From positions 1 to 22,918 of the IMG/VR virus record IMGVR_UViG_3300020159_001122: a stretch of 22,918 nt of DNA; one strand, 5' to 3'. Of the stretch, positions 1 to 15,381 are shown piece by piece. The notes under the pieces are model-generated. The model had not been told where the DNA came from and searched no databases. It saw only the letters and a program-made list of their open reading frames with translations. How positions within the stretch are numbered: position 1 is the stretch's first letter; each line of letters begins with the position of its first letter. The translations under genes were made by a program, and so were the position numbers. This DNA is from a virus.

Positions 1-1
1 A

Positions 2-742
2 GCATTGCCTGACCAACACATTGTAGTATTTGCACTAGATGGCTTAGAAGACACACATCATCTATACCGAATTGGCACTACCTACGAGCAGGTTATTCGC
101 AATGCCAAAGCGTTCATTGATGCTGGCGGCATTGCTGAGTGGTGTTTTATCAAGTTCAAGCACAACGAACATCAGGATGAAGAAGCTCGTAGGCGAGCAG
201 TCGAATTAGGATTCAAACATTTCACTTTGAAAAACTCTAGTAGATTTTTAGGTGAACCCAAATATAAGGTTCTCGACAAACAAGGCAAAACGACACATTA
301 TATCGAACCGCCGTCAGATAATAAGATGCATTTTATCAGTAAAGAAATGATTGCATCCTATAAAGAAACAATCATGCCGTTAGAAATAAAATGCAAAGTG
401 TTGGAATCCAAGGAAATATATATTGATGCACAAAAAAATATCATGCCCTGCTGTTGGGTATCTAGTATTCCTTACACACAATATGATGACGAAAATATTG
501 ACCTAGGTTTACGCCAAGAAATCAAACGACAATACGAAGATTTAGTTATAGATCTAGGCGGTATTGAAAAATTACATGCAGTCAATGTTGGAGTTAAGGC
601 TGTATTAGACAGCCCGGAGTGGAAGACTGCTTGGTATAAACACTGGAATCAAAAGAAGATGATTATGTGTGCAAGAATCTGCGGAGAAAGTAAAACTATT
701 TCAAAGCCTGGTGATCAGTTTTTAGAGCGTAATCACTTCTGA
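2..742 (+). CDS. Radical SAM protein, C-terminal part (5' truncated by window edge)
   Basis: The frame is open to the left edge, so this is the 3' part of a longer gene; the N-terminal CxxxCxxC cluster motif would lie outside the window. The visible 245 residues begin in the second half of a radical SAM barrel (residues 9-21 carry FALDGLEDTHHLY, the usual beta-strand with a substrate-side Asp, then the GGIAEW and FKHNEHQ segments). They continue into a twitch/SPASM-like auxiliary cluster region with C130, the pair C149-C150 (IMPCCW) and C222/C226 (CARIC). That Cys pattern is typical of radical SAM proteins holding a second Fe-S cluster. The substrate is unknown. It converges with the minus-strand oxygenase gene and overlaps its end by 21 nt. 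The family call is firm; the exact start is unknowable here. Confidence 0.85.
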   Translation, partial: ALPDQHIVVFALDGLEDTHHLYRIGTTYEQVIRNAKAFIDAGGIAEWCFIKFKHNEHQDEEARRRAVELGFKHFTLKNSSRFLGEPKYKVLDKQGKTTHYIEPPSDNKMHFISKEMIASYKETIMPLEIKCKVLESKEIYIDAQKNIMPCCWVSSIPYTQYDDENIDLGLRQEIKRQYEDLVIDLGGIEKLHAVNVGVKAVLDSPEWKTAWYKHWNQKKMIMCARICGESKTISKPGDQFLERNHF

Positions 743-1408
743 TACTGATTTTACAGTAACGCTGAAACCTTTAGATCGCACTGCACCAGTGATTGTATCT
801 ATAACTTCTTGAGATGCGTTTAACAACAACTCACGCTCACTCACTTTTTCAATACCCGTAACAAGCCCGGATTTTATTGCTCGATTTAGATAGCTCATAA
901 AACTAATGTGCAGTTCTTGTTTCCAATCGTAATCACCACCGTCCATTGATATTAACACACCTGGATACTTAAATGCAGGAAGAGGCACACGAATGTTAAG
1001 GTGTATACGATCTCGCCCGCCAAAATTAGTAGCCACATGAATTTGACTAGTATCCATTCTCCATATATGTCCATCTATAGGCACATGATACATTGTTTGG
1101 CTAGTAAGGTCTTGCAAATAGCAGTAGGGATTTGTTATAATAGCTAAGTGAAGTCTGTCATCTGGATCTGAATGTGCTGTATAACTTTCAGCACTGCTCA
1201 ATTTTAGAAGTCTAGCTTCACCAATAGTGCCCAATGATTCCAGTACATTACCCAATGGGGTATTTTTGAATTCTTTTTTAATGTGATAAGGCCCAGAAAA
1301 CAGCGGCCCGACAGTTTCATTTAGGTGTAGGCGTTTATCAAAACTCAATGATTGTACTTGTTCAATTATTGGGTCAATAGGAAATTTTATATCGAGTCGT
1401 TCAAGCAT
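722..1408 (-). CDS. Aspartyl/asparaginyl beta-hydroxylase-like Fe(II)/2OG oxygenase
   Basis: The 228-aa product has the features of the Asp/Asn hydroxylase (cupin-fold) family. An HxD pair is at H79-D81 (AHSDPDDRLHL), and the distal segment H124 to R134 reads HVATNFGGRDRIHL, which matches the family pattern of an iron-binding His followed by N, R and a second His that holds 2-oxoglutarate. Known relatives hydroxylate Asp/Asn or small molecules using Fe(II), O2 and 2-oxoglutarate; the substrate here is unknown. It is transcribed divergently from the PLP-type gene, with only 12 nt between the two ATGs. Its end overlaps the truncated radical SAM gene. It is one of four probable Fe(II) oxygenases in the window. 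The start at 1408 is the only ATG before the conserved part and is plausible. Confidence 0.82.
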   Translation of the reverse strand: MLERLDIKFPIDPIIEQVQSLSFDKRLHLNETVGPLFSGPYHIKKEFKNTPLGNVLESLGTIGEARLLKLSSAESYTAHSDPDDRLHLAIITNPYCYLQDLTSQTMYHVPIDGHIWRMDTSQIHVATNFGGRDRIHLNIRVPLPAFKYPGVLISMDGGDYDWKQELHISFMSYLNRAIKSGLVTGIEKVSERELLLNASQEVIDTITGAVRSKGFSVTVKSVSEVITL

Positions 1409-1415
1409 CTAAATA
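1409..1415 (+). promoter_or_regulatory. CTAAATA late-promoter-like motif
   Basis: CTAAATA lies 5 nt upstream of the ATG at 1421, inside the 12-nt gap between two divergent genes. It resembles the T4-type late promoter core TATAAATA; T4-like cyanophages are known to use (C/A)TAAATA variants. The same TAAATA core recurs close to other island starts. The placement would give an almost leaderless mRNA. This is motif matching only. Confidence 0.4.
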
Positions 1416-1420
1416 CTTAT

Positions 1421-2275
1421 ATGGAAAGAGTAAAGATAGCTTCGAGTTATGAAGAAAAATGGCTTCAAGTTGAACGGCCTAGCCCTCTTGCTGATAACAA
1501 AATTGAATCGCTGATCAGTGACGTACTATCTGGTAAACTAGATAAAGATATTACCGACACTGTCTATGAAAATTTCAAGCAAGAAATGGAGCAGTGGATA
1601 GTGGCTTCCCCTTTTAACACACTGACCGGGTTGGACACATTCAGTAGAAAAGACATCATTATCGGTTGCACTCAATTTATTGATACACTATATATGCAAG
1701 GTTCTGTGCAGGTAATTTCTGGTGATTACAGATATCACCAACGACTAGGAAATGTCTACAGTGATCCTGGTAAACTAAAACCAAATGTGCCGCTAATAAT
1801 TGCCATGCCGTTTCCTAGCACAGGTACTATACACTACAATATGTATAATATACTGACCGAATGTGTTGAAAAAAGCATACCAGTACACATTGATGGTGCA
1901 TGGATTACTTGCTGCCGCGATATTAACTTTGACTTTGATCATCCTGCGATTCAATCTGTTGGGATAAGTCTTAGTAAAGGAATCGGACTCGGATGGAATA
2001 GAGTAGGGCTACGATGGACTAAAGAAACCAAGGCCGATGCTATTACTATTATGAATGACTTTCACATGAACAATCGTGCATTGGTTATGATTGGACTTCA
2101 TTTTATTCGAAATCTTCCTGCTGATTATCTATGGCTAACTCATGGAGAACGATACTACAAAATCTGTAGAGACTTTAATTTACGTTCTACCCACTGTATA
2201 TACCTTGCCATGCGCGATAGTCAGCCAGTTGGAGTAAGTCCATTAATAAGGTATTTAGAAAATGCATCTACATAA
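1421..2275 (+). CDS. Short PLP-dependent aminotransferase-like protein (fold type I)
   Basis: With the ATG at 1421 the product is 284 aa. A longer reading from 1352 would run across the start of the divergent gene and adds an unconserved head. The core of a fold-type-I PLP enzyme is visible: an Asp that would contact the pyridine nitrogen (HIDGAW, D158), the Schiff-base Lys (SLSKG, K186) and a following Arg (GLGWNRVGLRW, R194) that normally binds the cofactor phosphate. Ordinary aminotransferases are about 400 aa, so this one is compact and lacks most of the small C-terminal domain, ending about 90 residues after the Lys. Transamination, decarboxylation or another PLP reaction cannot be distinguished. 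Its end overlaps the PP-loop gene by 14 nt, which indicates translational coupling. Confidence 0.72.
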   Translation: MERVKIASSYEEKWLQVERPSPLADNKIESLISDVLSGKLDKDITDTVYENFKQEMEQWIVASPFNTLTGLDTFSRKDIIIGCTQFIDTLYMQGSVQVISGDYRYHQRLGNVYSDPGKLKPNVPLIIAMPFPSTGTIHYNMYNILTECVEKSIPVHIDGAWITCCRDINFDFDHPAIQSVGISLSKGIGLGWNRVGLRWTKETKADAITIMNDFHMNNRALVMIGLHFIRNLPADYLWLTHGERYYKICRDFNLRSTHCIYLAMRDSQPVGVSPLIRYLENAST

Positions 2276-2987
2276 CATAGACGGAGTTGAAATACCCTTT
2301 GATTCTAACTGGAGCAATATTGCTATCAGCATTAGTGGGGGTGCAGATTCTGCATTACTAGGATATCTTTTGTGCAGTATGAACAAAAACTCAACTGTGC
2401 ATGTGATATCACATACTCGTATGTGGAAGACTAGACCGTGGCAACAGTGGGATAGCCTAGAAGTATATAACTGGCTTAAGATAAAGTTTCCTACTATAAG
2501 ATTTTATCGTTATACTAATTTGATTGCTCCTGAACTAGAGTATGGAAACATTGGTCCTAGTCTTGTTGATGAATATGGAAAATCAGTCAGTGGTGATAAT
2601 ATACAACAGCGAGCTTATGCAGAATATGTGTGCCACCAACATAATATCAATGCGTACTACAATGCAGTCACTCGAAATCCTAGACAAGTACAGTTTAGTG
2701 GGATGCAAGAACGCGATATTGATCCTTCACCTGATAATGAACATTTACGCATAATGAAACACATGGATGTATGGGCTATTCATCCTTTCCGCTTTGTGGA
2801 CAAGAGTTGGGTAATTAAACAATATAAACGATTAGATATTTGGAACTTGCTGGAACTTACAAGAAGTTGTGAGGGCGAGTTTGATAACATAAACTATCAA
2901 ACATATACTGCAGGACAGCATGTGCCTGTTTGTGGTACATGTTTTTGGTGTAAAGAACGAGAGTGGGCAATTGAACAATCAAAGTAA
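2262..2987 (+). CDS. QueC-like PP-loop N-type ATP pyrophosphatase
   Basis: The 241-aa product has the PP-loop SGGADS at residues 25-30, the signature of ATP pyrophosphatases that adenylate a carboxylate, amide or tRNA base. At the C-terminus are C203, C224, C227 and C230 (CGTCFWCKERE). This corresponds to the zinc site of QueC, the enzyme that turns CDG into preQ0, although the gap between the first and second Cys is 20 residues and longer than I recall for QueC. The family call is well supported, but the substrate is not: no GTP cyclohydrolase, QueD or obvious QueE is in view. It overlaps the PLP gene upstream and the next radical SAM gene downstream, so these three are probably made together. 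Other possible roles are amide or thioamide formation on another substrate. Confidence 0.78.
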   Translation: MHLHNIDGVEIPFDSNWSNIAISISGGADSALLGYLLCSMNKNSTVHVISHTRMWKTRPWQQWDSLEVYNWLKIKFPTIRFYRYTNLIAPELEYGNIGPSLVDEYGKSVSGDNIQQRAYAEYVCHQHNINAYYNAVTRNPRQVQFSGMQERDIDPSPDNEHLRIMKHMDVWAIHPFRFVDKSWVIKQYKRLDIWNLLELTRSCEGEFDNINYQTYTAGQHVPVCGTCFWCKEREWAIEQSK

Positions 2988-4233
2988 AACATTTTGTATG
3001 CATCCTTTTACAGGATTAGCGACTAGGGAAGACGGAGCAATTCAGGTGTGTTGTCGCAGCCATCCCATTGGCTTTATTCAAGATGCCCCTTTAGAGTATC
3101 ACTGGAACAGCGAAACAATGCAACGTATTCGCAGGCAAGTATTGCGTGGAGAACGTCCTTCGGAATGTTCTCCTTGTTTTAATTTAGAAGATCAAGGTGT
3201 AGAAAGTCTACGTCAACGACACATTGCAGGAGTTATACCCGAAGCTCGAATTAATTTGTATCCAGATGCTTTGAGTAAGATGACACATGATTTTACCATG
3301 CCGTTTGAAATACCCACTATGGAAATTAAACTCAATAATTTGTGTAATTTAAAGTGCCGCATGTGTCATCCAGGGGACAGTACCAGTTGGAACGATTGGG
3401 CAGAAATTAAAGACTTCTACAAAGACGAAGGCAAAATAATTTATCAGATGGTTGAGGATCATGATTTAGAAAATAAACCATTACTAGACAAGTTTGAAGA
3501 CAATGCAGGATGGTGGGCTAGTCTAGAAAAAAACTTGCCATACTTCCGACGTGTGGAGTTTGCAGGCGGCGAACCCTTGATGGATCCACAACACTATCGA
3601 ATATTAGACATGCTGGCTCCATACGGTGATCAAATTGAAATTAAATATGCCACCAATCTAACAACACTAGGAAAGAACAATAGAACCATATGGCAGTACT
3701 GGCCTAAGTTCAAATCTGTAGCCGTAAACGTGAGTATAGACGGTATTGGTGTCAGTTATGAATATGTTCGAGGTAATGCTTCGTGGGCAGAACTAATTCA
3801 CAATATCAAACAAATACAAACAATACCCAACATCAGTCGTATTGTAGGTGCTGTGGCTGTGCAAGTCAGCAATATCATGGTGTTGGATAAAATGATTGAA
3901 TACTTCCTAGATGACCTAGGCATTGTATTCTATACCAACATGGTACAGTATCCCAATGTGTTGTCTATTCAAACATTACCACAGCAGTTAAAAGAAATTG
4001 CAAATGACAGACTAGAATCTGTAAAGAGTAAAATACATAATTATAAAATGATTAAAGAGAGACCAATCCTGCTTGATATTACTATTGGTCAAATTGAGGG
4101 AGTACAAAATTTTCTACGGGCCAATGATGAAAGTCAGTTATGGCCGGACTGTATTGAGTTTAATCGTAGATTAGATAACACAAGAAATCAAAGTTTTTTA
4201 GACATTACACCAGAGTTTAAACCATATGTTTAA
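2971..4233 (+). CDS. Twitch-domain radical SAM protein
   Basis: The frame is open from an ATG at 2920, but that lies deep inside the upstream gene. The TTG at 2971, with a GAG-rich stretch upstream, gives a 420-aa protein that begins just before the conserved FCMHPFTG segment, so I prefer it. The N-terminal half carries an auxiliary-cluster (twitch-like) region with C9, C27-C28 and C66/C69 (CSPC). The radical SAM motif CNLKCRMC follows at about residues 125-132, and the GGEP-type motif (FAGGEPL) comes later. This order, auxiliary cluster first and SAM cluster second, marks the twitch-domain radical SAM proteins, several of which occur in marine viruses; their function is not established. It ends 8 nt into the next radical SAM gene. 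The alternative start at 2920 would add 17 residues. Confidence 0.85.
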   Translation: MNNQSKTFCMHPFTGLATREDGAIQVCCRSHPIGFIQDAPLEYHWNSETMQRIRRQVLRGERPSECSPCFNLEDQGVESLRQRHIAGVIPEARINLYPDALSKMTHDFTMPFEIPTMEIKLNNLCNLKCRMCHPGDSTSWNDWAEIKDFYKDEGKIIYQMVEDHDLENKPLLDKFEDNAGWWASLEKNLPYFRRVEFAGGEPLMDPQHYRILDMLAPYGDQIEIKYATNLTTLGKNNRTIWQYWPKFKSVAVNVSIDGIGVSYEYVRGNASWAELIHNIKQIQTIPNISRIVGAVAVQVSNIMVLDKMIEYFLDDLGIVFYTNMVQYPNVLSIQTLPQQLKEIANDRLESVKSKIHNYKMIKERPILLDITIGQIEGVQNFLRANDESQLWPDCIEFNRRLDNTRNQSFLDITPEFKPYV

Positions 4234-5122
4234 ATTAACTAGCAGTTGGCCGCATCAAGATCAAATCAAGATTGAATGGAATCTTGGTAAACGCTGTAAT
4301 TACGACTGCTCATATTGTCCAACTAGTATACATGATAATTTTAGTCCGCATACAGATATTAATGTATTAGAAAAAACTATCGACAGACTCTGTGAATTAG
4401 ATAAGCCTTTGCGAATCAGCCTCACAGGCGGTGAACCTTGTGTTCACCCAGACATTGAAGATCTATTTGACTATATGAAACGTAAAAATATTTTCTGGGT
4501 TAATCTTACCACTAATGGTACTAGATCAGCTTCATGGTATCTACAGAATGAAATGTTTTTTAATCACATAGTTTTTAGTTTGCATTTTGAACATGATTGG
4601 CAAAGAGTGATGCATATCATAAATCAGTTCTACGATAGCACAGAACGTGAATTTTTTGTAAATGTCATGGCACATCACGATTACATGGACGAGGTTCGAA
4701 CTGCGACAGCTCAACTGATACAGAAAGGTATTAAATTTGCTGTAAGACGAGTGAGATGGACTGAAGGGGATCATAATGTATTTGATGATCTACGATACAA
4801 TGGTCAAGATTTAGAGTGGTTATTGTCCATGGACGCTACAGCAAAACCTAACTGTCGTGTCGACGATACCAAAATAGTTCATGCCAACGATATTATAAAG
4901 AAGAATCAAAATCAATTCAAGGGGTGGACCTGTAATGCCGGCATAGAAAGTTTAATGATAAATTGGGACGGCGAAGTACACCGTGCCACATGTCGTGTCG
5001 GCGGTAGTCTAGGCAATATATATCAGGGAACATTTGTAGCACCAACTAATTCGATTATATGTACTAGAGATTGGTGCACCTGCGCTGCCGATATTCCTCT
5101 AACAAAAATAAAGAACTCGTAA
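4226..5122 (+). CDS. Radical SAM enzyme with SPASM-like C-terminus (paralogue A)
   Basis: The 298-aa product has the [4Fe-4S]/SAM motif CNYDCSYC at residues 24-31, the SAM-binding ITGGEP-type motif (SLTGGEPCVHP), and a Cys-rich C-terminus made of GWTCNAGIESL, then RATCRVGG, then CTRDWCTCAAD. The C-terminal Cys set suggests one or more auxiliary Fe-S clusters, as in SPASM/twitch enzymes. The same layout occurs in the products at 10318-11247 and 14392-15381, so the island holds three paralogues. SPASM relatives modify peptides or small molecules, but no precursor is identified. The gene starts inside the previous radical SAM gene (8-nt overlap), and its stop codon TAA sits inside a TAAATA motif that may drive the next gene. 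Confidence 0.9.
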   Translation: MFKLTSSWPHQDQIKIEWNLGKRCNYDCSYCPTSIHDNFSPHTDINVLEKTIDRLCELDKPLRISLTGGEPCVHPDIEDLFDYMKRKNIFWVNLTTNGTRSASWYLQNEMFFNHIVFSLHFEHDWQRVMHIINQFYDSTEREFFVNVMAHHDYMDEVRTATAQLIQKGIKFAVRRVRWTEGDHNVFDDLRYNGQDLEWLLSMDATAKPNCRVDDTKIVHANDIIKKNQNQFKGWTCNAGIESLMINWDGEVHRATCRVGGSLGNIYQGTFVAPTNSIICTRDWCTCAADIPLTKIKNS

Positions 5123-5125
5123 ATA
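5119..5125 (+). promoter_or_regulatory. GTAAATA late-promoter-like motif
   Basis: GTAAATA overlaps the TAA stop of the upstream gene and ends 4 nt before the ATG at 5130. It matches the TAAATA core seen near other starts in this island. Because the core overlaps a stop codon, part of the match is explained by coding constraint, so support is weak. Confidence 0.3.
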
Positions 5126-5129
5126 CATC

Positions 5130-5462
5130 ATGGACATTTATCACATCTGGGCCGACAAAGAGGGAGACATCAGCGACCTCCAATGGGTCAACAATATGAA
5201 AAGTTTTCTTCAACATCTTGTTGATGAAGGCAAAATGCACAGCTATCGCATCACTAGATGCAAGATGGGATTTCGCAGCATTGAGAATTTACCAGAGTGG
5301 CATATCATGATGGAGTTTACAGGAATGACACAATTAGAAAGTGCTTTCCAAAGAGTGGCGCCACTAGAGGGTGAATTAGAAGATAAACACAAAAGTTTTA
5401 ATCAGTTTGTAGGCGGTAATATACAGCATGCCTATTTTAGAGATTGGCCAGATGAACAATAG
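5130..5462 (+). CDS. DUF6614-like small protein
   Basis: The 110-aa product opens with MDIYHIWADKEGDISD and ends with YFRDWPDEQ. It contains an RITRCKMGF segment and an EWHIMMEF strand. This pattern fits my memory of DUF6614, a small alpha/beta family of unknown function found in marine bacteria, with a fold suggestive of a dimeric alpha-beta barrel or ferredoxin-like domain. No catalytic residues are evident. It sits between a radical SAM gene (7-nt gap) and the amidinotransferase, whose ATG lies inside this gene 11 nt before its end. That suggests it works with, or is co-expressed with, the amidinotransferase. The family name is from recall; the gene itself is certain. Confidence 0.75.
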   Translation: MDIYHIWADKEGDISDLQWVNNMKSFLQHLVDEGKMHSYRITRCKMGFRSIENLPEWHIMMEFTGMTQLESAFQRVAPLEGELEDKHKSFNQFVGGNIQHAYFRDWPDEQ

Positions 5463-6633
5463 AGTAAACAGTTGGGACGAGTTTCAACCGCTAGAAGCAG
5501 TAGTGGTTGGTAGTATTTACGACAGCAGTTTTTTTGATGGAGTTAAAAATAAAAAAATTGGCGACGTTCTCAAACGAATTGTAGACGAAACTAATGAAGA
5601 TATCGAATATTTTAAACAACAACTTAAATCACACAATATCGATGTGTTTCAAGCCTCTCCTGCGGAGCTTGGATACAAATCTAGCATACTGGACTATGTT
5701 GATGTTAATGGTAAACTAGGATATGGCAGCGATAACCCAGACTTCGTTAAAGATAGTTTAATTCCAACAAGTCCATTACAGGTTAGAGACGATTCGGTCG
5801 TAATGGGAAACAAAATTTTAGTAACGGATAGAACCTTTGAAGTAGAGGGATATACCAAAAAGTTTCAAGAATGGTTTGGCGCAGATCAATTAGACCTATC
5901 AATATATGAAGGAAATTATCGTTTTCATCAAACTGAAGAATGTTTAGAGCGTTATATTAAAGATCGTAATTTGGGCGAAACATTATCAGACTTTACCGAA
6001 GAACAAAAACGCAAGCTCATTGAAGAAAATGTATTAATGGGATTTTGTAGTCCTAATTTAACTCGTATTGGTAAAAAGTGCTTAGTTGATTTAAATCAAA
6101 CTCCTACACTGATAGATTTTTTAAAAGAAAAATATCCAAAATTTGATTATGCACCTTTAAATTTAGGCGGCCACAACGACAGTATTTTTAGTGTATTGAA
6201 ACCCGGACTTGTTGTATCGGGTCCTTGGTTTAAAGGATCAGAAAGTGCTTTTAAAGATTGGGAAATTATCTACTTTAATGACGCTCGGTGGGATCATGTG
6301 CGTGAATGGTTAGACTTACGTAGCAAAAACAAAGGCAAGTGGTGGGTACCAGGTGAAGAACAAAATGATCAATTTACACATTTCGTAGAATCATTCTTGC
6401 CAGGATGGACCGGGTTCGTTGAAGAAACTATATTTGATATCAACAGTCTTGTTATCGATGAGAAGAATGTTGTGATTAATAGCAACAGCCCTAACCTAAT
6501 CAAACTGTTGGAAAGTAAAGGCATCAACCCGATTGTGTGTCCTTTAAGGCACAGATTTTTTTGGGACGGTGGATGGCACTGTTTAACTCTTGATGTTCGG
6601 CGTAGTGGTGGTCAAAATGACTACGGACTTTAA
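5452..6633 (+). CDS. Glycine amidinotransferase-like protein
   Basis: The ATG at 5452 gives 393 aa beginning MNNRVNSWDEFQPLEAVVVG, the usual N-terminus of amidinotransferases; an ATG at 5428 would add eight unconserved residues. The guanidine-modifying enzyme triad region is visible: an RDD segment in QVRDDSVVMGN, the His in NLGGHNDS, and the nucleophilic Cys in GGWHCLTLDVRR (C377) near the C-terminus. Length and motif order match L-arginine:glycine amidinotransferase and its relatives, which move an amidino group from arginine to an amine through a Cys intermediate. The acceptor is unknown, and a hydrolase (arginine-deiminase-like) role is less likely but possible. It overlaps the DUF6614-like gene by 11 nt and the next gene by 17 nt. 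Finding one in a phage is unusual. Confidence 0.85.
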   Translation: MNNRVNSWDEFQPLEAVVVGSIYDSSFFDGVKNKKIGDVLKRIVDETNEDIEYFKQQLKSHNIDVFQASPAELGYKSSILDYVDVNGKLGYGSDNPDFVKDSLIPTSPLQVRDDSVVMGNKILVTDRTFEVEGYTKKFQEWFGADQLDLSIYEGNYRFHQTEECLERYIKDRNLGETLSDFTEEQKRKLIEENVLMGFCSPNLTRIGKKCLVDLNQTPTLIDFLKEKYPKFDYAPLNLGGHNDSIFSVLKPGLVVSGPWFKGSESAFKDWEIIYFNDARWDHVREWLDLRSKNKGKWWVPGEEQNDQFTHFVESFLPGWTGFVEETIFDINSLVIDEKNVVINSNSPNLIKLLESKGINPIVCPLRHRFFWDGGWHCLTLDVRRSGGQNDYGL

Positions 6634-7531: not shown

Positions 7532-7701
7532 GCTTTCAATATTTCAAAAACACTTGCACCTAGTTGTCGCTCAACTAGAGCTCTAGTCGCTTCATTTTCA
7601 TAAATTTGTAATAAAGATTTATACAACACAATGTTCTGTTGTTGTATTTCCATAAATTTATCTATGTAAAATGGATCAGTGAATACAGGTTTATCAGTCA
7701 T
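7519..7701 (-). CDS. Small 60-aa protein, unknown
   Basis: The product is a 60-aa soluble, mostly helical peptide (MTDKPVFTDPFYIDKFMEIQ at the start, then a predicted amphipathic helix, ending in a Cys-Pro-Ala tail). It has no signal peptide or membrane segment. It is accepted as a gene because it fits exactly into the operon: 4 nt after the upstream oxygenase gene and overlapping the GNAT-like gene by 13 nt. No homologue is recognised. Its small size and position next to two oxygenases and a transferase make it a possible carrier or substrate peptide, but nothing in the sequence, such as a Gly-Gly leader site or repeated core, proves that. Confidence 0.6.
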   Translation of the reverse strand: MTDKPVFTDPFYIDKFMEIQQQNIVLYKSLLQIYENEATRALVERQLGASVFEILKACPA

Positions 7702-7705
7702 AATT

Positions 7706-8266: not shown

Positions 8267-8825
8267 TGGGAATTCCTAAAAAATGAAAAAGATAATATGG
8301 GCCTTGTCCAGCGTTGGTTCCAGCATGATATTCTCGGTAGTGGTCCCATCGATATATTTCACCTTGTTCTATATTATAAAAACATTCATTACCTAAAATA
8401 AATGCTTGAGCAAATTTTGGTTTATCTATAAAACAAACATAGCGAACAAGTTCTCCTTGTTTCAGCCACTCTTCCTCATTATCTTCTACATCCCAATGAT
8501 ACGGAACACATTGACCTGGCATGATTTCAGAAATAAACACACGTTTAGGATCAGCATTAACTATGCTAGCAAATATATCTTGTACATTGCTGTTAAAATG
8601 TTCCTCTGGATAATAGTCCCACCATTCGATGTTTTTAAAATCGTAATTGGCTTTTTTCCAGGTACTCATTATGTCTTTATAGTAGCCAAGATTAACTGTG
8701 GGATCATCTTCAACGCGAGCTGTTACTGTAGAAGGACTATTATGATCTCCGCTGCGAGGCACAATACTTTTTATAATATTGTCCCAATCAATTAAACCAT
8801 TAGTGGAACCGATGCGCTTAGGCAT
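8259..8825 (-). CDS. Cupin-type Fe(II)/2OG oxygenase-like protein (paralogue 2)
   Basis: With the ATG at 8825 the product is 188 aa (MPKRIGSTNGLIDWDN...); a longer frame to 8876 would run into the upstream gene and is not needed. Iron-binding residues are visible as an HxD in VPYHWDVED (H110, D112) and a distal His in EYHAGTNAG (H167). The spacing is almost the same as in the neighbouring paralogue. A conserved WWDYYPEEHF segment precedes the oxygenase core, corresponding to WDMFFPGKHY in the paralogue. Relatives hydroxylate amino-acid side chains or small molecules, but the substrate here is unknown. It overlaps the kinase-like gene upstream by 8 nt and paralogue 1 downstream by 8 nt. Confidence 0.75.
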   Translation of the reverse strand: MPKRIGSTNGLIDWDNIIKSIVPRSGDHNSPSTVTARVEDDPTVNLGYYKDIMSTWKKANYDFKNIEWWDYYPEEHFNSNVQDIFASIVNADPKRVFISEIMPGQCVPYHWDVEDNEEEWLKQGELVRYVCFIDKPKFAQAFILGNECFYNIEQGEIYRWDHYREYHAGTNAGQGPYYLFHFLGIPND

Positions 8826-9510
8826 TAAAAATTTTCCTATATATAAATTCCATAGTGTAGTTACCCCACTTAACATGTTCTTGCATGGAACGTTGAAACA
8901 TGATTTCTAAATTGTATTTGTTATTAACAATAGCGCCAGTTTCAGCTAATCTAAATTTTGCCGATTCGTGTATAATACCGTCCATATATTCTGCATCGAT
9001 ATATGGATCGTTGACTGGTACACAACCATACCAATCTATCGTTTGCATTTGCCCATCTTTAATAAAATGGCAATGAGGATACATAGTTAATTTGTATGTT
9101 CCGGTGTTATATAAATCTGTCATTATGTACTGAAGTTGGTTTTTCCAATCGCTACAATAATTATCTAGTTTTTTACCGCTATAGATAATTTCATTGCACG
9201 TTTCACCTTGCCATTCAAAAAATATTTGTTTTGCTTTATAATCAATATCTATTACAGCAGGAGTGTATGGTTTGTCTTTATATTTTAATAAATTTTTTAC
9301 TTCATTATCAAAGAACCATTCAGTTACTGTAGAAGTATACAGTGTTCTATTAGCATCTTCTTGTTTTTGGTATTTGTTTAACCAATCATAATTAGCACAA
9401 AATATAGTACGTTCTGGATTAAGTAGTGGCTCGTAGGTTTGTTGAGACATGCATCGTATGCCGTCCTCGTCTAATTTTAAAAAAGGTATCCAATTATTAA
9501 TCGAAATCAC
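8818..9510 (-). CDS. Hypothetical protein, weak kinase-like features
   Basis: The 230-aa product is not firmly recognised. Its middle part resembles the catalytic half of a protein-kinase-like fold. A hinge-like FFEWQGETCNEII stretch (about residues 97-109) is followed by a helix (DWKNQLQYIMTDLYNTGTYK), then LTMYPHCHFIKDGQMQTIDW, where H146/H148 with N-terminal Tyr-Pro could be a catalytic-loop relative and D159-W-Y-G a DFG-like metal site. No glycine-rich loop or VAIK-type Lys can be named. If it is a kinase, the target would be a small molecule or protein in the same pathway. It is embedded in the operon, overlapping the cold-shock/oxygenase gene by 14 nt. I am sure it is a real gene and unsure of its function. 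Confidence 0.6.
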   Translation of the reverse strand: MISINNWIPFLKLDEDGIRCMSQQTYEPLLNPERTIFCANYDWLNKYQKQEDANRTLYTSTVTEWFFDNEVKNLLKYKDKPYTPAVIDIDYKAKQIFFEWQGETCNEIIYSGKKLDNYCSDWKNQLQYIMTDLYNTGTYKLTMYPHCHFIKDGQMQTIDWYGCVPVNDPYIDAEYMDGIIHESAKFRLAETGAIVNNKYNLEIMFQRSMQEHVKWGNYTMEFIYRKIFNA

Positions 9511-10321
9511 GAACTTTATATCCTACACGAGGTTGATCGCTAAAGAAACAACTAGCGATCCATTTAGTTCCTTGAGTGATCAACCGACTTTCATGAATTG
9601 TACTCCAGTTTGTTACTTCATCATAGCACTGTTCAAAGTACAAGAATGAACCTGCTTTTGGTTGTATTTCAACATTTAATTTTGGAAAATAGGTTTGGCC
9701 GCCTACAAAATTGTCATTCAAAAAGAATATACCGGTTCCTACTCTGTCGCCGCCGTATTTGTAATAGTTTATTTGTCTCGGATCGTACGGGTAATCGTGA
9801 TGCAGATCTAAATACTGCCCTTCGACATAGTTATAGATATCTATAGCTTCAATATGGCTGTACGGAATTTTTGCAGAATTCACAATCGCTGTGGCCAACA
9901 TATCATAATGATAGGGATCTACTCCTAGACTTATTCCTCTGTTTTCTACTAATTCTGTTACCTGTTGAAAAGATTCTTGTCTACTTTGTATTCCGGAATT
10001 AGGATTCATCCCATTTCTAGAATGTCTTTCAATGATACTATTACATGCTTCTATAGACAAAAGATTATCAAAAACACTTATCCTTGGAATGTCTAAATGT
10101 TTGTGCTCAACCACTGAGGTCAGAACACTGATGTTGATAGCTTTACTGCCCTCTTCTGTTTCTATTCGTTCAAAAGAAACCTGCTGAAGTTCAAACAGTA
10201 CCTGAGGTTCTGCATTTATATCGCATTTTTCTACTAGAATAGAGGATCCATCTTTGTCAGATAAGATAAATCCATAATCTTTAGCATCATTAAACCATTT
10301 AACTATTCCGTATTCTATCAT
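9497..10321 (-). CDS. Cold-shock domain fused to prolyl-4-hydroxylase-type Fe(II)/2OG oxygenase
   Basis: The 274-aa product has two domains. Residues 1-70 look like a cold-shock (OB-fold) domain: GIVKWFNDAKDYGFI matches the CSD RNP-1 signature (GxVKWFNxxKGYGFI), followed by SILVEKCDI and VSFERIETEEGSKAINI as in CspA-type proteins. Residues from about 78 to 274 are a P4H-type double-stranded beta-helix: YNYVEGQYLDLHHDY gives the HxD iron ligands (H174, D176), GGQTYFPKLN and PKAGSFLYFE are family strands, H243 (TIHES) is the distal His and K253 (GTKWIASCFF) the 2OG-binding Lys. All catalytic residues are present. The fusion suggests an oxygenase guided to single-stranded nucleic acid, or one acting on a ribosome/RNA-bound protein. 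It overlaps genes on both sides by 4-14 nt. Confidence 0.88.
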   Translation of the reverse strand: MIEYGIVKWFNDAKDYGFILSDKDGSSILVEKCDINAEPQVLFELQQVSFERIETEEGSKAINISVLTSVVEHKHLDIPRISVFDNLLSIEACNSIIERHSRNGMNPNSGIQSRQESFQQVTELVENRGISLGVDPYHYDMLATAIVNSAKIPYSHIEAIDIYNYVEGQYLDLHHDYPYDPRQINYYKYGGDRVGTGIFFLNDNFVGGQTYFPKLNVEIQPKAGSFLYFEQCYDEVTNWSTIHESRLITQGTKWIASCFFSDQPRVGYKVRDFD

Positions 10322-11247
10322 ATATGTTTATCCGCCCTGATGTCAGCACCGCAATCACATCGTGATCTATTGCAAATCACAGATTTCGGCCATTGATCAA
10401 TGTTAAAATCTTTAACATTTCCGAGATCGATCATTCCACAATTGCTCCAAGAAATATTACCCTCGGGTGTAATTAGTAAATTTTCTTTTCCAGAAAAACA
10501 AGTCCACCCTAGAAAATTGTTAGTATCATTTTTCATTAATTGATCTGGATCTAACACCGAAGTTGATCCGTCGTCGTATACCGCTGTAGTGTCAATGTCC
10601 TTTAACCAACCATGAGAAGCTTCTAGTTCGCTAAATCGGTCTTTGGTAAATTGCCAGCTTGGGGGAGTGTCTAACAATGCTAACTGTTCGGGAGACCACT
10701 GATATGTGTAATTTGCTCCTGCCCAATTATCGACTGGTTTGATTAGTATAATTTTTATATTTTCTAATGATTTTAATTGAGAAACCCATGAGTTAGCTAA
10801 ATCCCAATGCTTAGGATCCATCATTACATAAACAATTACAAAACTTTGATCTGTTAAAACTTTGATTTTTTCAATATCAAATTTATGTTGACTTGGATGC
10901 ATGGTTAAACACCAAACATCTGCTAGATTAGCGACTTCTTTATAGAATCTAGCTGTCCTAACATTATTACTATCTACTGTGATTTTAATTCCAGTCCCTC
11001 GAAGCATTTTTAATATATCGATAAACTGAGGATGAGTAGTAACTTCCCCACCAGTAATTCCAATATATATAGGTTGCGTAAACTGACTGAAAAACTTTTT
11101 GTAAAAATCTAAATCAATAGTTAGATGTTTTCCAGTCCTAAATTGAGAAGGGCAGTATTCACAGGCATATACACAATTAGTGGTCATTTGCCAAGTAATT
11201 TTTAATGTGTGTTGATTACCGGATTGAATTTTAATTAGTTTTTTCAT
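10318..11247 (-). CDS. Radical SAM enzyme with SPASM-like C-terminus (paralogue B)
   Basis: The 309-aa product has the cluster motif CVYACEYC (residues 25-32), a GGE motif in GITGGEVTTHP where Val replaces the usual Pro, and a Cys-rich C-terminus GWTCFSGKENL, then SNCGMIDLGN, then CNRSRCDCGAD. The C-terminal pattern is nearly superimposable on paralogue A (4226-5122), including the closing CxxxxCxCxAD, so both probably hold the same auxiliary cluster(s). The barrel interior differs, which suggests different substrates or different sites on one substrate. The gene starts 17 nt inside the end of the sulfotransferase-like gene and ends in a 4-nt ATGA overlap with the cold-shock/oxygenase gene. 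Confidence 0.9.
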   Translation of the reverse strand: MKKLIKIQSGNQHTLKITWQMTTNCVYACEYCPSQFRTGKHLTIDLDFYKKFFSQFTQPIYIGITGGEVTTHPQFIDILKMLRGTGIKITVDSNNVRTARFYKEVANLADVWCLTMHPSQHKFDIEKIKVLTDQSFVIVYVMMDPKHWDLANSWVSQLKSLENIKIILIKPVDNWAGANYTYQWSPEQLALLDTPPSWQFTKDRFSELEASHGWLKDIDTTAVYDDGSTSVLDPDQLMKNDTNNFLGWTCFSGKENLLITPEGNISWSNCGMIDLGNVKDFNIDQWPKSVICNRSRCDCGADIRADKHI

Positions 11248-11863
11248 TTAGTTTGTTAATTTTATTTTGCCATTCTGCATCAACTTCCGATAATACGTTT
11301 TGTAATTGTTGCACTACCCAATTAAAATTTTTAATGTAATGATATTTTTTATAACTTTCTTGATTGTCTGTGTTTATTAGCGCAGGATCAAAATGACTTA
11401 ACGGATAACTTTCTAAATTAATCACTGTACCATAAGACGGGTAATAATTAAAATATTTTTTAATTTCTGTTCTTGCGATTTCAATATCGGAATCGTTTGC
11501 TAAAAATTCAAAAGGAGCAATTTCATCCCGTTTATTAAACCCAAAACGCTGTGCAATAATGAGACTCAGGAACGTATTTAATCTATCTGGTCTTTCAACT
11601 ACAAATATATCGTATGTTTTTGCATCCAGCGATTGAGCGTACCAGTCCTGTATAATGATCGATCGATCAATGTGCGGTCCGTGTATTTTTAATACTGTGT
11701 TGGCATCATCTATTTTATAAAATGCTTTTTTAATTTCTTGATCATTGTTAAGATCTAAGTTGAAATCAGCAAACACTTCGTCTTTAACAATGGCCCGGCG
11801 ACATGCATAAAATAACACAGTGGCTCGTGTTCTTGGCAGAGTATACAACATTACAGGTTTCAT
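11231..11863 (-). CDS. Sulfotransferase-like P-loop protein
   Basis: The 210-aa product starts MKPVMLYTLPRTRATVLFYA, which resembles the 5'-phosphosulfate loop of PAPS-dependent sulfotransferases (LPRSGTT-type). Around residues 88-100 is VVERPDRLNTFLS, like the 3'-phosphate-binding R-x(7)-S segment. LKIHGPH between them could carry the catalytic His. It is short compared with typical sulfotransferases (about 250-300 aa), and the first loop lacks a Gly, so PAPS use is not certain. The APS-kinase-like protein encoded three genes upstream in the same operon would be a logical PAPS source. It overlaps the small unknown gene upstream by 4 nt (ATGA) and the radical SAM gene downstream by 17 nt. Confidence 0.6.
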   Translation of the reverse strand: MKPVMLYTLPRTRATVLFYACRRAIVKDEVFADFNLDLNNDQEIKKAFYKIDDANTVLKIHGPHIDRSIIIQDWYAQSLDAKTYDIFVVERPDRLNTFLSLIIAQRFGFNKRDEIAPFEFLANDSDIEIARTEIKKYFNYYPSYGTVINLESYPLSHFDPALINTDNQESYKKYHYIKNFNWVVQQLQNVLSEVDAEWQNKINKLNEKTN

Positions 11864-12207
11864 AATTCTATAACCGGGTCACTGATAGTCCAACCACGTT
11901 CTGTTAATGCATCTTTAAATTTTAAAAACATATCGTGATTAAAAAAATATTTCATAAATTGATTTATATCGTTAGCTGTTTCCCAAATGGTAGTAGATGA
12001 CTTTGATATAATATCCCAAACTTCCATATCTAAGGGATAGTTTCTTATACTGTAGTCGATGTTGGCCTGTCTCCACCACACATCGAGCTCAAAAATAAAT
12101 TCTTCTCCGTATTTTAAAAATAAGATATTTTCAACTGCAGAATCAAATTCTTTGTAGTTTTTATAATCTGCATTTAGATTAGAAATTTTAATCGAACATC
12201 GTTGCAT
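11860..12207 (-). CDS. Hypothetical 115-aa protein
   Basis: A small acidic, aromatic-rich protein with no recognised family. Visible features are an N-terminal beta-strand-like MQRCSIKISNLNADY, a helical middle with YGEEFIFELDVWWRQANIDY, and a C-terminal MFLKFKDALTERGWTI segment. There are no Cys pairs, membrane segments or known motifs. It is accepted because its ATG directly abuts the stop of the SGNH-like gene and its stop overlaps the next ATG by 4 nt, which is typical translational coupling. It might be a partner subunit for a neighbouring enzyme; nothing in the sequence says which. Confidence 0.65.
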   Translation of the reverse strand: MQRCSIKISNLNADYKNYKEFDSAVENILFLKYGEEFIFELDVWWRQANIDYSIRNYPLDMEVWDIISKSSTTIWETANDINQFMKYFFNHDMFLKFKDALTERGWTISDPVIEL

Positions 12208-12966
12208 TTATAATTCCAGATTATTTAAAATTTGCCTAGCAGCCTTTTCATTTGTTTTGATACCATTATGCATTAAATCTCTTGCTTTATCACAGCTATC
12301 ATTTATTTTGTCGCAATCTAATAATTTTTGTGTACCTGAAAACAAACTAGCTTCGTAATATTTTGTACGATTATTCCATATTTGTCGACTAGCTAATTGT
12401 ACAAATAATGCTTGACACCTAGCATGTTCTTCATCCTTGTTCCAATGATAAATGTAGTTGTTATCTTTAATATCCCAGACTCCGTAATGTTCCACATATT
12501 TTTTATAGTAATAAACCGTTCTAGAATAATCAGTCCACAAATGTACTATTGCTAAAGGGGTTGGATATCGTTGATTTAGTATTACAGAATTATGAAAAGA
12601 AGACATCATTGAAGATCCGCCTATTCCCATATTAATTGTAGGTATTCCAGATTGTTGTTCAATCATTGTTGGTATAGTGTGTTGATCATCAACTCCTGTA
12701 CCAAAAACTACCGAACACCCAAATACAACTATTGAGTTAGCCCAATCAATTTTTTTAAATTCTTTTGTTCTATAACCATCTGAATTAACCGAATATTTTA
12801 CTGGCTGTGTTCGATAAACCCAATTGTCTTTTTGAGTTTTTAAATTTGTTTCGAATAACTGTTTAGTATCAGTTCCATAAAAATTGCTGTCAATGTCAGG
12901 ATCAGTTTTAATAAAATTAAGTTTTTTTATTTCTTTACTGGTCGTAGAAAATATTAAATTTTGCAT
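12208..12966 (-). CDS. SGNH/GDSL-hydrolase-like protein
   Basis: The 252-aa product shows the blocks of an SGNH hydrolase: VVFGCSVVFGTG with S85 in the nucleophile position, NMGIGGSS (block II Gly), and near the C-terminus DLMHNG, where D230 and H233 form the DxxH catalytic pair. A block-III Asn is not clear (AIVHLWTDYSRT lies at that place). The family covers esterases, acetyl-transfer/hydrolysis enzymes and glycan O-acyl esterases. No signal peptide is present, so it should act in the cytoplasm of the infected cell. It begins after an 11-nt gap downstream of the kinase/nucleotidyltransferase gene, the largest gap in the operon, where a TTAAATA motif is found. Confidence 0.72.
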   Translation of the reverse strand: MQNLIFSTTSKEIKKLNFIKTDPDIDSNFYGTDTKQLFETNLKTQKDNWVYRTQPVKYSVNSDGYRTKEFKKIDWANSIVVFGCSVVFGTGVDDQHTIPTMIEQQSGIPTINMGIGGSSMMSSFHNSVILNQRYPTPLAIVHLWTDYSRTVYYYKKYVEHYGVWDIKDNNYIYHWNKDEEHARCQALFVQLASRQIWNNRTKYYEASLFSGTQKLLDCDKINDSCDKARDLMHNGIKTNEKAARQILNNLEL

Positions 12967-12977
12967 TAGTTTCGCTG

Positions 12978-13817
12978 TTATTTAAGGCCCAGCTCTTGAC
13001 GAATTTTTGTGGCACTGATGTCTGTGATTGTTTCCTCAAATGTTTCCTCGCCACTGGTATAACCTACACCCCTGCCCCATCCAATGTGTACGATATTCGG
13101 AACTACTTGTATTTCGTATTGCCCTTGATATATTGGATCTAAATCTCGACGAATAAATGATTTGACTTTTTCTACTTCAAAAGGATTGCTACCTTGCCAG
13201 CCTTGAACATCACGTATTTGAATAACCACTTGCCCTGTACGTTGTATTAATCTTTCAAACAGAGCACGATGACCGTCATGCCACGGCTGCCAACGACCTA
13301 ACATCTGCACTGTTTCTTGTTTCCAATTAAAGACGGGGCGACGACGATTATCAATGATGTGTTGCCCGATAAACTCAGCCCACTTTTCTGCATTCTGTTC
13401 CGTGACACGGAAATCATACACTTCAGGTTCTACAAAGGCTGCATTGGTATCAGCATAACGTCCTTCACGTATGGTATCCATCCAAATGGTCCAGTCTGCT
13501 TTGAAGTTGTTGCGCATTTCTACCAAGGGTGCAACAAAGTCACAGATAACATAGTCACCTCCGGCTTCTATGCTGAACTGGAACATACGCAAACTCTGAC
13601 GAATGCGGCCATCATTGCTGAAGTCCCAGTCGTTGTACTTGCGACGAATATCATCTGCGTTGAACCAAGTTACCTTAGGTTTAAAACCAGTTATGGGTAA
13701 CATCTCAGCGTGACTCAAATCTGCTGTTCCGTGTTTTTCAAGATACTTTTTAAGAGCATCTGCTAGTGTTGTTTTACCTGAGCCTGGTAGGCCCATAATT
13801 AAAATTCGTTGTGTCAT
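12978..13817 (-). CDS. APS-kinase-like kinase fused to NadM-like nucleotidyltransferase
   Basis: The ATG at 13817 gives 279 aa; an upstream extension to 13877 would overlap the methyltransferase gene for no gain. Residues 1-160 are a P-loop kinase: Walker A GLPGSGKTT at 9-17, then WFNADDIRRKYNDWDFS and CDFVAPLVEMR, the layout of adenylylsulfate kinases. Residues from about 168 are a nucleotidyltransferase: GRWQPWHDGH (HxGH at 180-183) and ISATKIR (267-273, the ISSTxxR motif), as in NMN/other adenylyl- or cytidylyltransferases. The fusion could phosphorylate and then nucleotidylate a small molecule, or make PAPS or an NAD-like compound. It overlaps the methyltransferase gene by 4 nt (ATGA). 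Both domain calls are firm; the substrate is open. Confidence 0.85.
   Translation of the reverse strand: MTQRILIMGLPGSGKTTLADALKKYLEKHGTADLSHAEMLPITGFKPKVTWFNADDIRRKYNDWDFSNDGRIRQSLRMFQFSIEAGGDYVICDFVAPLVEMRNNFKADWTIWMDTIREGRYADTNAAFVEPEVYDFRVTEQNAEKWAEFIGQHIIDNRRRPVFNWKQETVQMLGRWQPWHDGHRALFERLIQRTGQVVIQIRDVQGWQGSNPFEVEKVKSFIRRDLDPIYQGQYEIQVVPNIVHIGWGRGVGYTSGEETFEETITDISATKIRQELGLK
12979..12985 (-). promoter_or_regulatory. TTAAATA motif upstream of SGNH-like gene
   Basis: On the minus strand TTAAATA overlaps the stop codon of the kinase/nucleotidyltransferase gene and lies 12 nt before the ATG at 12966. It falls at the only real gap in the operon, so an internal late promoter is possible. 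The Lys-stop codons themselves account for most of the match. Confidence 0.25.
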
Positions 13818-14407
13818 TGGGTAGTTCCTATAATCATATATCGCGTGTACAGTGGCAGTTTGAGTTCGCCAGCCCATTGTACTTTTACTTGACTCTGTTC
13901 TACAAAATGTTCTAAATCTTTTGCAATACGTATGTGTTCTGGAATATCATAATTATTACTCTGTAATACTAATAGACTGTTATGTGGCATTCCACTCAAC
14001 CATAGATCATATTGATCCTGTGTGATATGTTCGCAACTGGTATTGATAATAACATCGGCATCACTACGCATGGCACACATGTCTGCGGTCACTGCCCGAA
14101 ACTTGCCTGCCATTTCTTCTTTCTTATTCATCATTATAGCAATAGGTTCACACGTGGGATCGATATCAACGCTACGAATATTCTTAATGTAAATATCACT
14201 CTGGAATAGCATACTAGCGAGTACCCCGACCCAGCCGCCATGAATATCAATGCTGACAAACTTGTTTACATGTTTTCGAAGATTAGTGATTAACCACTCT
14301 TTGCTATTAAGTTGGCCCGACCAAAAGGCATCCATGGTCCTTATCGGATCTGGACTTTGACGGATAGCCTGCATCCAATAATGTAAATGTTCTAGATCAA
14401 TTTGCAT
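13814..14407 (-). CDS. SAM-dependent methyltransferase-like protein (class I)
   Basis: The 197-aa product has a Rossmann-type methyltransferase core. Motif I appears as SIDIHGGWVGVLASML (residues 52-67), motif II as SVDIDP (D81/D83 region, binding the SAM ribose), an acidic motif III at ADMCAM, and a catalytic-region NTSCEH (122-127) followed by LVLQSNNY. Motif I is degenerate (HGGWVG instead of GxGxG), as in some phage and small-molecule methyltransferases. It has no DNA target-recognition domain and no NPPY/DPPY motif, so a DNA adenine methylase role is unlikely. The gene starts inside the end of the radical SAM gene (16-nt overlap) and overlaps the kinase/nucleotidyltransferase start by 4 nt. 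Confidence 0.78.
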   Translation of the reverse strand: MQIDLEHLHYWMQAIRQSPDPIRTMDAFWSGQLNSKEWLITNLRKHVNKFVSIDIHGGWVGVLASMLFQSDIYIKNIRSVDIDPTCEPIAIMMNKKEEMAGKFRAVTADMCAMRSDADVIINTSCEHITQDQYDLWLSGMPHNSLLVLQSNNYDIPEHIRIAKDLEHFVEQSQVKVQWAGELKLPLYTRYMIIGTTQ

Positions 14408-15381
14408 TTTGGTATCTTTGAATCCGCCGAACTTACACAGCTAGGTGTAACACATATTTTTGGTTCTGTAAACAAATCAAATCCCTCTGTGAGTGTGCCC
14501 AAAGGCTGATCATGACAACTATATGATCTTTTAACTTCATTGCTTCTTATTATAACACTTTGATAGCCACTATTGCAACTCCAACCTTGAAATTTATTGA
14601 AATTAAATGCATTAAATCTTTCGGCCTGATCAAATAAGTATTCTTGGCCATTTTGATCATACAGTGCTATTTGATATAGATCTTCATCATCTACTTTCTG
14701 AGGAAATCCTGTTTGCATAATATCAATCATTTCATCAGTGTAACCACTTACTACAAAACTAGCAGTAGGATCACTCTGAGGTTTTAGAGTGACGTTGATA
14801 CCACGTTTAACAAATCTTTCACAGCGTTCATATAATTCCCAAAACTGTTCAGGAACCATTACTTGATTGATAGTAATATACACATTATCATAGATTAATT
14901 GCAGACACTTGTCACCAAATTCTTGTTCTTTAGCCTGTTCTGCGTGAAAACTAGCAGTGATACTTCTGCGCTGTAGATCTCTAGTGGCATGGCACCAAGC
15001 TCGCCACCATTTGGATCCTGGTGAAAGATTAGTAGTCATGTGTACGCTTTGGTATGGTGTGTTGGGTCCATCGTCCAAATGTTGTATTAGTTGTATCAGT
15101 TCTTTATAGGCTGTGGGTTCACCGCCCGAGAAACTCCAATGGAACTGATTGAATCCATTCTGCCTCGCCTGACGTTTGATTTCATCCACGGTGTGTTTGT
15201 AGACATCCAAACTTTGATAATCCTGTATGTCTGATCTAGCATAAGGCCAACAATAGGAACAAGAATAGTTACAGAAGCGACCCAAAATCCAACTGGTGGA
15301 GAACAAAGGGCGAGATAACATGGTCCGTTGTCCAAAACGTACGATGTCTTGGAATGGTATTTTTTGAAAATCGATTGTCAT
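14392..15381 (-). CDS. Radical SAM enzyme with SPASM-like C-terminus (paralogue C)
   Basis: This is the first gene of the minus-strand operon, 329 aa. The SAM cluster motif CNYSCSYC is at residues 37-44, and the SAM-binding motif reads SFSGGEPTAY. The C-terminus repeats the paralogue pattern: GWSCNSGYQSV, SYSCHDQPLGT, then CVTPSCVSSAD. In paralogues A and B the last segment has a third Cys (CxxxxCxCxAD). Here that Cys is Ser, so one auxiliary-cluster ligand may be missing or supplied elsewhere. Compared with A and B it has about a dozen extra N-terminal residues and a longer insertion before the C-terminal domain. Its ATG at 15381 faces the divergent promoter region, with a minus-strand TTAAATA motif 10 nt upstream. 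Confidence 0.9.
   Translation of the reverse strand: MTIDFQKIPFQDIVRFGQRTMLSRPLFSTSWILGRFCNYSCSYCWPYARSDIQDYQSLDVYKHTVDEIKRQARQNGFNQFHWSFSGGEPTAYKELIQLIQHLDDGPNTPYQSVHMTTNLSPGSKWWRAWCHATRDLQRRSITASFHAEQAKEQEFGDKCLQLIYDNVYITINQVMVPEQFWELYERCERFVKRGINVTLKPQSDPTASFVVSGYTDEMIDIMQTGFPQKVDDEDLYQIALYDQNGQEYLFDQAERFNAFNFNKFQGWSCNSGYQSVIIRSNEVKRSYSCHDQPLGTLTEGFDLFTEPKICVTPSCVSSADSKIPKCKLI

Follow-up and report, generated by a model that had tools for sequence, protein, structure and literature searches.

A hypervariable putative tailoring island in giant phages from fresh and marine waters, with a recurrent radical SAM module and a portable amidinotransferase cassette

Introduction

N-terminal-twitch radical S-adenosylmethionine (SAM) enzymes (N_Twi_rSAM, NCBIfam NF033640) occur as tandem genes in bacterial O-antigen and polysaccharide loci. 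These loci are among the closest known counterparts of the gene island described here, which spans bases 1-15381 of the IMG/VR virus record IMGVR_UViG_3300020159_001122 (positions 1 to 22,918; this whole stretch of 22,918 nucleotides is referred to as the window). The likeness lies in the use of the same family in multiples, with four N_Twi genes each in the bacterial loci L222 and L102. However, the bacterial loci have glycosyltransferases (GT) and exporters, whereas the phage islands are almost devoid of the GT families GT2 and GT4 and add 2-oxoglutarate (2OG) oxygenases, a kinase-like protein and an amidinotransferase cassette.

The phage pathways for hypermodified DNA (thymine hypermodification and 7-deazaguanine) are also dense clusters containing radical SAM, pyridoxal phosphate (PLP) and GNAT-type genes. 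The window shares with them the dense clustering and a QueC-like gene, but no hydroxymethylase, DNA-base kinase or transglycosylase is recognised in it. Further counterparts of single island proteins are the amidinotransferases AGAT, HsvA, SxtG and StrB1, the DUF6875 heme oxygenases (ZigI; the 'cytochrome P422' of a preprint), the YqcI/YcgG guanidine N-hydroxylases and arginyl-tRNA-protein transferase.

An earlier note on this DNA had proposed that the region looks like one pathway building or decorating a complex product. "Building or decorating a complex product" is still the best general description of the 15-kb region, the product being putative. The notion of one inseparable system does not hold.

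Results

Modular organisation of the island

The region forms a hypervariable island, with a putative tailoring role, in giant phages of fresh and marine waters, and comparison of relatives indicates that it is very probably built of two separable modules. Module R consists of radical SAM (rS) and methyltransferase-like (MT) genes in the arrangement rS2-rS3 ... rS1-MT-rS5, together with OG1 and OG2/OG3 (2OG-oxygenase-like), KIN (protein-kinase-like), PLP and PP-loop genes. Module G consists of a DUF6614 protein, an amidinotransferase-family protein (AMD), a DUF6875-like protein (U9) and an arginyltransferase-like GNAT (ATE). Module R is the recurrent unit, while module G is a portable four-gene cassette located at the convergent strand switch of R.

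A scan of viral contigs for AMD gave 72 loci, in which partner genes were counted by tblastn: U9 is present in 59, ATE in 49 and DUF6614 in 41. In another scan, aimed at close relatives of rS2, 53 loci were recovered, and 52 of them are new locus records. rS3 and rS5 accompany rS2 in 51 of these 52, rS1 in 49, MT in 44, OG1 in 43, KIN in 40, OG2/OG3 in 38, PLP in 32 and the PP-loop gene in 28; the lower counts are minima because the flanks available were at most 10 kb. AMD is found in only three of the 52, all on contigs already known to carry it, so that module R stands without AMD in the other 49.

Gene order in the relatives reveals the boundary between the modules. In L138, L139, L168-L171 and other loci the convergent junction is empty, and rS2 and rS3 on the plus strand directly meet opposite-strand rS2, rS1 and MT genes. 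In L006, L007, L009 and L010 the cassette, with DUF6614, AMD and U9 on the plus strand and ATE on the minus strand, sits exactly at this junction. Three or four module G genes also occur where radical SAM genes are missing (L039, L041, L050, L052, L056, L057, L063 and others), in the orders U9-ATE-AMD-DUF6614, ATE-DUF6614-AMD-U9 and U9-ATE-DUF6614-AMD. The retention of the same partners through such rearrangement is our best evidence that the module G genes work together. In the amidinotransferase tree, module R loci are missing from two clades, of 18 and 11 rows, and make up nearly all of the 24-row clade to which the window belongs; some apparently R-less members of the latter are incomplete contigs.

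The co-occurrence proposed in the earlier note is beyond chance, since the same families are found together again in 52 loci, and in the relatives the genes appear neither scattered nor as a sum of known pathways. What had to be dropped is the single-pathway reading, because modules R and G separate in related phages.

Counted over the 83 loci that have at least three radical SAM genes, islands of this kind have 6-7 such genes at the median and 11 at most (L146). Among the cultured-phage records searched, rS2 was detected in three, and MT and ATE in none. A T4-type capsid (Gp23) was found in none of the 20 module R records among 30 searched; its three matches all fell in module R-negative records.

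Gene content of the window

Coding sequence takes up 99.7% of bases 1-15381; neighbouring genes overlap by up to 21 bp and no gap is longer than 21 bp, in agreement with the earlier description of overlapping or nearly overlapping genes. The open reading frames (ORFs) were recovered at the positions reported before (Table 1).

Table 1. Predicted genes of the island, with positions in the window and the main evidence for each assignment (HMM, hidden Markov model; AF2 pLDDT, AlphaFold2 confidence score).
Position	Strand	Gene product	Module	Evidence
2..742	+	rS1, radical SAM, N-terminus outside window	R	PHROG radical SAM 8.4e-7
722..1408	-	OG1, aspartyl/asparaginyl-hydroxylase-like 2OG oxygenase	R	PF05118 (Asp_Arg_Hydrox) E 1.6e-5
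1352..2275	+	PLP, compact PLP-enzyme-like, start uncertain	R	SLSKG motif only
2262..2987	+	PPL, QueC-like PP-loop ATPase	R	PHROG QueC-like 2.5e-6
2971..4233	+	rS2, N-terminal-twitch radical SAM enzyme	R	NCBIfam NF033640 N_Twi_rSAM
4226..5122	+	rS3, radical SAM with C-terminal cysteine cluster	R	PF04055 46.3 bits, CxxxCxxC
5130..5462	+	DUF6614 protein	G	PF20319 E 2e-22
5452..6633	+	AMD, amidinotransferase-family protein	G	family profile similarity
6617..7111	+	U9, DUF6875-like putative heme oxygenase	G	hhalign, Cys motif
7094..7531	-	ATE, arginyltransferase-C-terminus-like GNAT	G	PF04377 27.3 bits, cut-off 25
7519..7701	-	60-aa protein, close relatives only		in 6/72 amidinotransferase loci
7706..8266	-	OG2, 2OG-oxygenase-like	R	invariant HxD...H in 17 relatives; no Pfam match
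8259..8825	-	OG3, 2OG-oxygenase-like, OG2 paralogue	R	invariant HxD...H in 17 relatives; no Pfam match
8818..9510	-	KIN, protein-kinase-like fold	R	profile vs TTK E 8e-7; AF2 pLDDT 94
9497..10321	-	CSOG, cold-shock domain fused to 2OG oxygenase		PF00313 7e-11; PF13640 (2OG-FeII_Oxy_3) 6e-8
10318..11247	-	rS4, radical SAM, rS3 paralogue		PF04055 32.4 bits, CxxxCxxC
11231..11863	-	sulfotransferase-like (earlier note), unconfirmed		no HMM match; in 6/72 loci
11860..12207	-	U115, 115-aa protein		no HMM match; in 6/72 amidinotransferase loci
12208..12966	-	SGNH/GDSL-like hydrolase		weak, E 0.095
12978..13877	-	KNT, kinase fused to nucleotidyltransferase		PHROG 10255 3.4e-43; P-loop GLPGSGKT + HDGH
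13814..14407	-	MT, methyltransferase-like	R	conserved in 44/52 rS2 loci
14392..15381	-	rS5, radical SAM	R	PF04055 44.7 bits, CxxxCxxC

Most family assignments made earlier are borne out. All five radical SAM proteins stand, and the four Fe(II)/2OG-type oxygenases are recovered, two through Pfam and two through the invariant HxD...H motif. The QueC-like PP-loop ATPase, the kinase/nucleotidyltransferase fusion and the GNAT-like protein are backed by profile matches (together with motifs for the first, and in the last case an ATE_C match above the Pfam cut-off), and the amidinotransferase by the match of its family profile to AGAT structures. The compact PLP enzyme keeps its SLSKG motif, but the protein has no match in Pfam or NCBIfam; the SGNH-like hydrolase is left with a weak match. 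For the methyltransferase no Pfam or NCBIfam match was found, and the sulfotransferase-like call likewise received no HMM support.

The absence of CxxxCxxC from rS1 is explained by the window itself, whose edge cuts off the first 113 of 359 residues: rS1 aligns to residues 114-359 of full-length orthologues, and those of L001 and L004 carry CQASCPMC. rS2 scores 335.2 bits against NF033640 (curated cut-off 170), with additional Pfam matches to SPASM (residues 9-69, as expected for an N-terminal auxiliary-cluster domain) and Radical_SAM, and its CxxxCxxC motif reads CNLKCRMC. PPL contains SGGADS and a C-terminal cysteine cluster, C-x(n)-CGTCFWC, and does not reach the Pfam cut-off; HMM scans of the window proteins gave no match to the 7-deazaguanine partners QueD, FolE or transglycosylase. 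The predicted structure of KIN is matched by Foldseek with a probability of 1.00 to the RNA kinase Ark1, the O-antigen-capping WbdD and PRPK. KIN lacks the catalytic HRD aspartate, KLS being aligned to HSD of TTK.

The sulfotransferase-like, U115, CSOG, KNT and SGNH genes form a layer of optional decoration, each being present in just 6-8 of the 72 amidinotransferase loci.

The amidinotransferase cassette

The family profile of AMD matches AGAT, HsvA, SxtG and StrB1 in the PDB at E 1.1e-25 to 5.6e-21. Like these enzymes, the window protein and the phage clade keep the nucleophile Cys, the His with the Asp that follows it, and the guanidinium-binding Asp; the conserved motifs are HC, HND and RD, the RD pair being kept across the clade except in one side branch. 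However, the triad Asp (FDAAD) is lost: the window protein has FCSPN, with Cys in its place, and the relatives have Cys, Asn or Ser. The clade also has a motif of its own, FWDGGxHC. The triad Asp is still present in the amidinotransferases of L102, cluster c29 and L078. Creatine-type metabolism, for which a published virus methyltransferase encoded by an auxiliary metabolic gene might be compared, is not supported, as AMD is without the triad Asp and the neighbouring genes do not fit.

Profile comparison points to homology of U9 with DUF6875; heme binding and oxygenation by U9 are putative. Comparison with bacterial DUF6875 by hhalign gave 95.9% and E 5e-9, against 0.06-0.75 for control families, and U9 has the invariant Cys-Pro-[FY]-Ala common to DUF6875. 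The window protein has no Pfam match, the DUF6875 model included, and six of 23 U9 relatives match weakly. Its structure is predicted with a pLDDT of 94, and Foldseek found nothing in the PDB at E 0.001 or better. DUF6875 proteins have been reported as heme-binding enzymes oxidising tryptophan (2026 paper, PMC13307353). We also considered U9 as a guanidine N-hydroxylase of the YqcI/YcgG type, in which the heme ligand of AglA is Cys44 (PMC12866846). The comparison, made against only two YqcI sequences, was not significant (hhalign 3.5%, E 0.012, 25 columns), and a link drawn from the similar cysteine motif is suggestive only.

ATE corresponds to the C-terminal GNAT part of arginyl-tRNA-protein transferase and is without the N-terminal half: it is 145 aa long, has no ATE_N match, and its best PDB match is the arginyltransferase 7wfx. 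Argolaphos, in which a guanidine heme N-hydroxylase is paired with GNAT-type aminoacyl-tRNA ligases (PMC8976061), provides a precedent for combining such a ligase with a guanidine heme oxygenase, as module G may do. Neighbourhoods of bacterial DUF6614 and DUF6875 genes contained no amidinotransferase, ATE or radical SAM partner, and our literature search found nothing on DUF6614 or on phage radical SAM genes combined with an amidinotransferase.

Glycan context of N_Twi radical SAM relatives

To our knowledge, no product or substrate has been assigned to any N_Twi radical SAM enzyme. Members of the family above the cut-off are found in just two of 299 Pseudomonadota whole genomes, and both loci hold surface-polysaccharide genes. 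L222 has four tandem N_Twi genes beside an ABC-2 permease, RmlC, RmlD and WbsX, and in L223 the N_Twi gene adjoins a GT2 and a sugar epimerase gene. In Vibrio phage K566 four N_Twi genes are interleaved with two GT8 genes, a GT4-like gene and PagP. L102, a Bacteriovoracaceae metagenome-assembled genome (MAG) locus (8530-14880), carries four N_Twi genes around an amidinotransferase with canonical FDAA; GT2, an ABC ATPase, an O-carbamoyltransferase and polyketide synthase (PKS)-like genes are its neighbours, making it a candidate bacterial natural-product or surface-glycan cluster. Thus rS2-type enzymes have a surface-glycan context in all four non-island records examined. In cyanophage S-SCSM2R, KdsA, KdsB and 2OG oxygenases are encoded next to a distant AMD relative.

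Discussion

Possible product of the island

The explanation we favour, tentatively and with somewhat less than even confidence, is that the island tailors a sugar-type product. A carbohydrate-type substrate is favoured because the N_Twi relatives and the distant AMD relative lie among glycan genes. Since the phages are almost without GT2 and GT4, this substrate would most likely be host-made sugars or glycan precursors. Module R would oxidise, methylate and rearrange it, and module G would then add an amidino (guanidino) group, a possible target for oxidation by the heme-type protein and for aminoacylation by the ATE-like one. We infer that both modules may act on one product, whose decorated form would be a glycan of the cell surface or of the virion. 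In a bolder form, which we regard as rather unlikely, the island would be a modular multi-radical-SAM assembly line with a plug-in cassette leading to a guanidine decoration, oxidised and aminoacylated, that has no known counterpart in any virus, with the AMD clade working without the triad Asp.

Several observations weigh against this glycan explanation. Amidino transfer by AMD is unproven because the protein lacks the triad Asp, and the DUF6875-like gene is linked to its family by profile only. The glycan argument draws on four records of distant relatives, and in 25 module R phage records GT2 was above the cut-off in none and GT4 in two, many of the records being fragments and these two being the only GT families searched. 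A full polysaccharide-synthesis locus was rejected on the same near absence. Moreover, the ATE-like, cold-shock-fused and QueC-like proteins point as strongly to RNA or protein as to sugar.

A free guanidino or N-hydroxyguanidino natural product made from arginine and other amino acids, acting as a toxin against competitors or as a metallophore, seems unlikely, although AMD belongs to the family of SxtG, HsvA and StrB1, the DUF6875-like heme-type partner and the ATE-like GNAT parallel the logic of argolaphos, and L102 joins an amidinotransferase and N_Twi enzymes to PKS-like and carbamoyltransferase genes. A Trp-halogenase family match among the island genes of relatives is also consistent with it. 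However, no nonribosomal peptide synthetase, PKS, ATP-grasp ligase or transporter is recognised among the window genes, there is no obvious need for an export pathway in a cell about to lyse, and the N_Twi relatives elsewhere lie in glycan loci. The last point speaks equally against modification of a protein or peptide, either a virion protein or a ribosomally synthesized and post-translationally modified peptide (RiPP), which we consider quite unlikely. The SPASM/twitch architecture with weak matches to RiPP maturases, as well as the PF05118 Asp/Asn-hydroxylase-like oxygenase and the ATE_C GNAT, would suit it, but the coding density leaves no room for a precursor gene save the 60-aa and 115-aa ORFs. 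The RiPP reading was dropped, as neither is a fitting conserved precursor.

Nucleic-acid modification, whether of phage DNA bases, of tRNA or of the tRNA-like RNA at the island edge, would account for the cold-shock domain fused to an oxygenase, the QueC/TilS-like PP-loop protein and the resemblance of KIN to Ark1, and the tRNA-like RNA lies 65 bp from rS5. We nevertheless judge it improbable: the window encodes a single thymidylate synthase, an ordinary ThyX located outside the island; none of its proteins matched a transglycosylase or hydroxymethylase family; and the tRNA-like RNA is missing from 11 of the module R records searched and occurs in 17 loci that have no radical SAM gene upstream. 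Least probable of all, and very much so, is an accumulation of unrelated cargo genes at a hypervariable site with no common product. The outer genes do vary between relatives with strands mixed, and module G is separable; however, core members stay together in 44-51 of the 52 loci in conserved order with overlapping genes, and the module G genes stay with one another even where their order changes.

Phage-borne modification pathways have brought new chemistry to light before, and here islands of 5-11 radical SAM enzymes within less than 20 kb recur across freshwater and marine giant phages while being nearly absent from the cultured phages searched. The two-module split offers a clean experimental handle, as it allows phages that have the cassette to be set against phages that lack it. 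The tie of N_Twi enzymes to surface-glycan loci gives a testable prediction for a family for which we found no assigned substrate, and the amidinotransferase clade without the triad Asp raises a specific question of enzymology.

Variation among related islands

Some islands bear epimerase, UDP-glucose dehydrogenase, sulfotransferase and DegT genes, which we count in favour of the glycan link. The Trp_halogenase family match (E 1.7e-92) is among the unassigned island genes of relatives; from its length we would guess that it is the 538-aa ORF at L181 17712-19325. In their outer part some islands have a second amidinotransferase, with canonical FDAA (cluster c29; eight loci, among them L017 at 3002-3985). 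The 161-kb contig L075, assigned to a marine Chloroflexi MAG and probably a misbinned giant phage, also bears an island, which includes nine radical-SAM-family ORFs and an amidinotransferase.

tRNA-like RNA and backbone genes beside the island

Just beyond the island, at 15446-15552 on the plus strand, the window contains a 107-nt tRNA-like RNA without a normal anticodon arm. It has a 7-bp acceptor stem, an encoded CCA, a T-arm and a class-II D-arm, a hairpin of variable length replaces the anticodon arm, and a sigma-70-like promoter (TTGAC/TATAAT) lies upstream. The acceptor and T stems covary: 99.6% of cells are paired, and 19 double changes were counted where shuffles gave 5.9. ARAGORN made no call for the RNA in the window, and its Rfam score was below threshold. 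The D-arm pattern is matched by at least 120 viral-contig stretches. All 25 pattern matches in other loci adjoin rS5, as in the window; a less biased scan found a radical SAM gene beside the RNA in 55 of 72 loci with usable flank and none in 17. The RNA was therefore rejected as an obligatory part of module R. Because it is absent from 11 other module R records, it seems to belong to the backbone of one giant-phage clade and not to the island. It is possibly an aminoacylatable non-decoding RNA.

Right after the tRNA-like RNA, and kept in relatives, is the gene for a histone H1-like Hc1 protein (15596-15790, PF07432 E 1.8e-14). The phage backbone adjoining the island also includes the ThyX thymidylate synthase gene (16253-16933, PF02511 E 4.7e-45).

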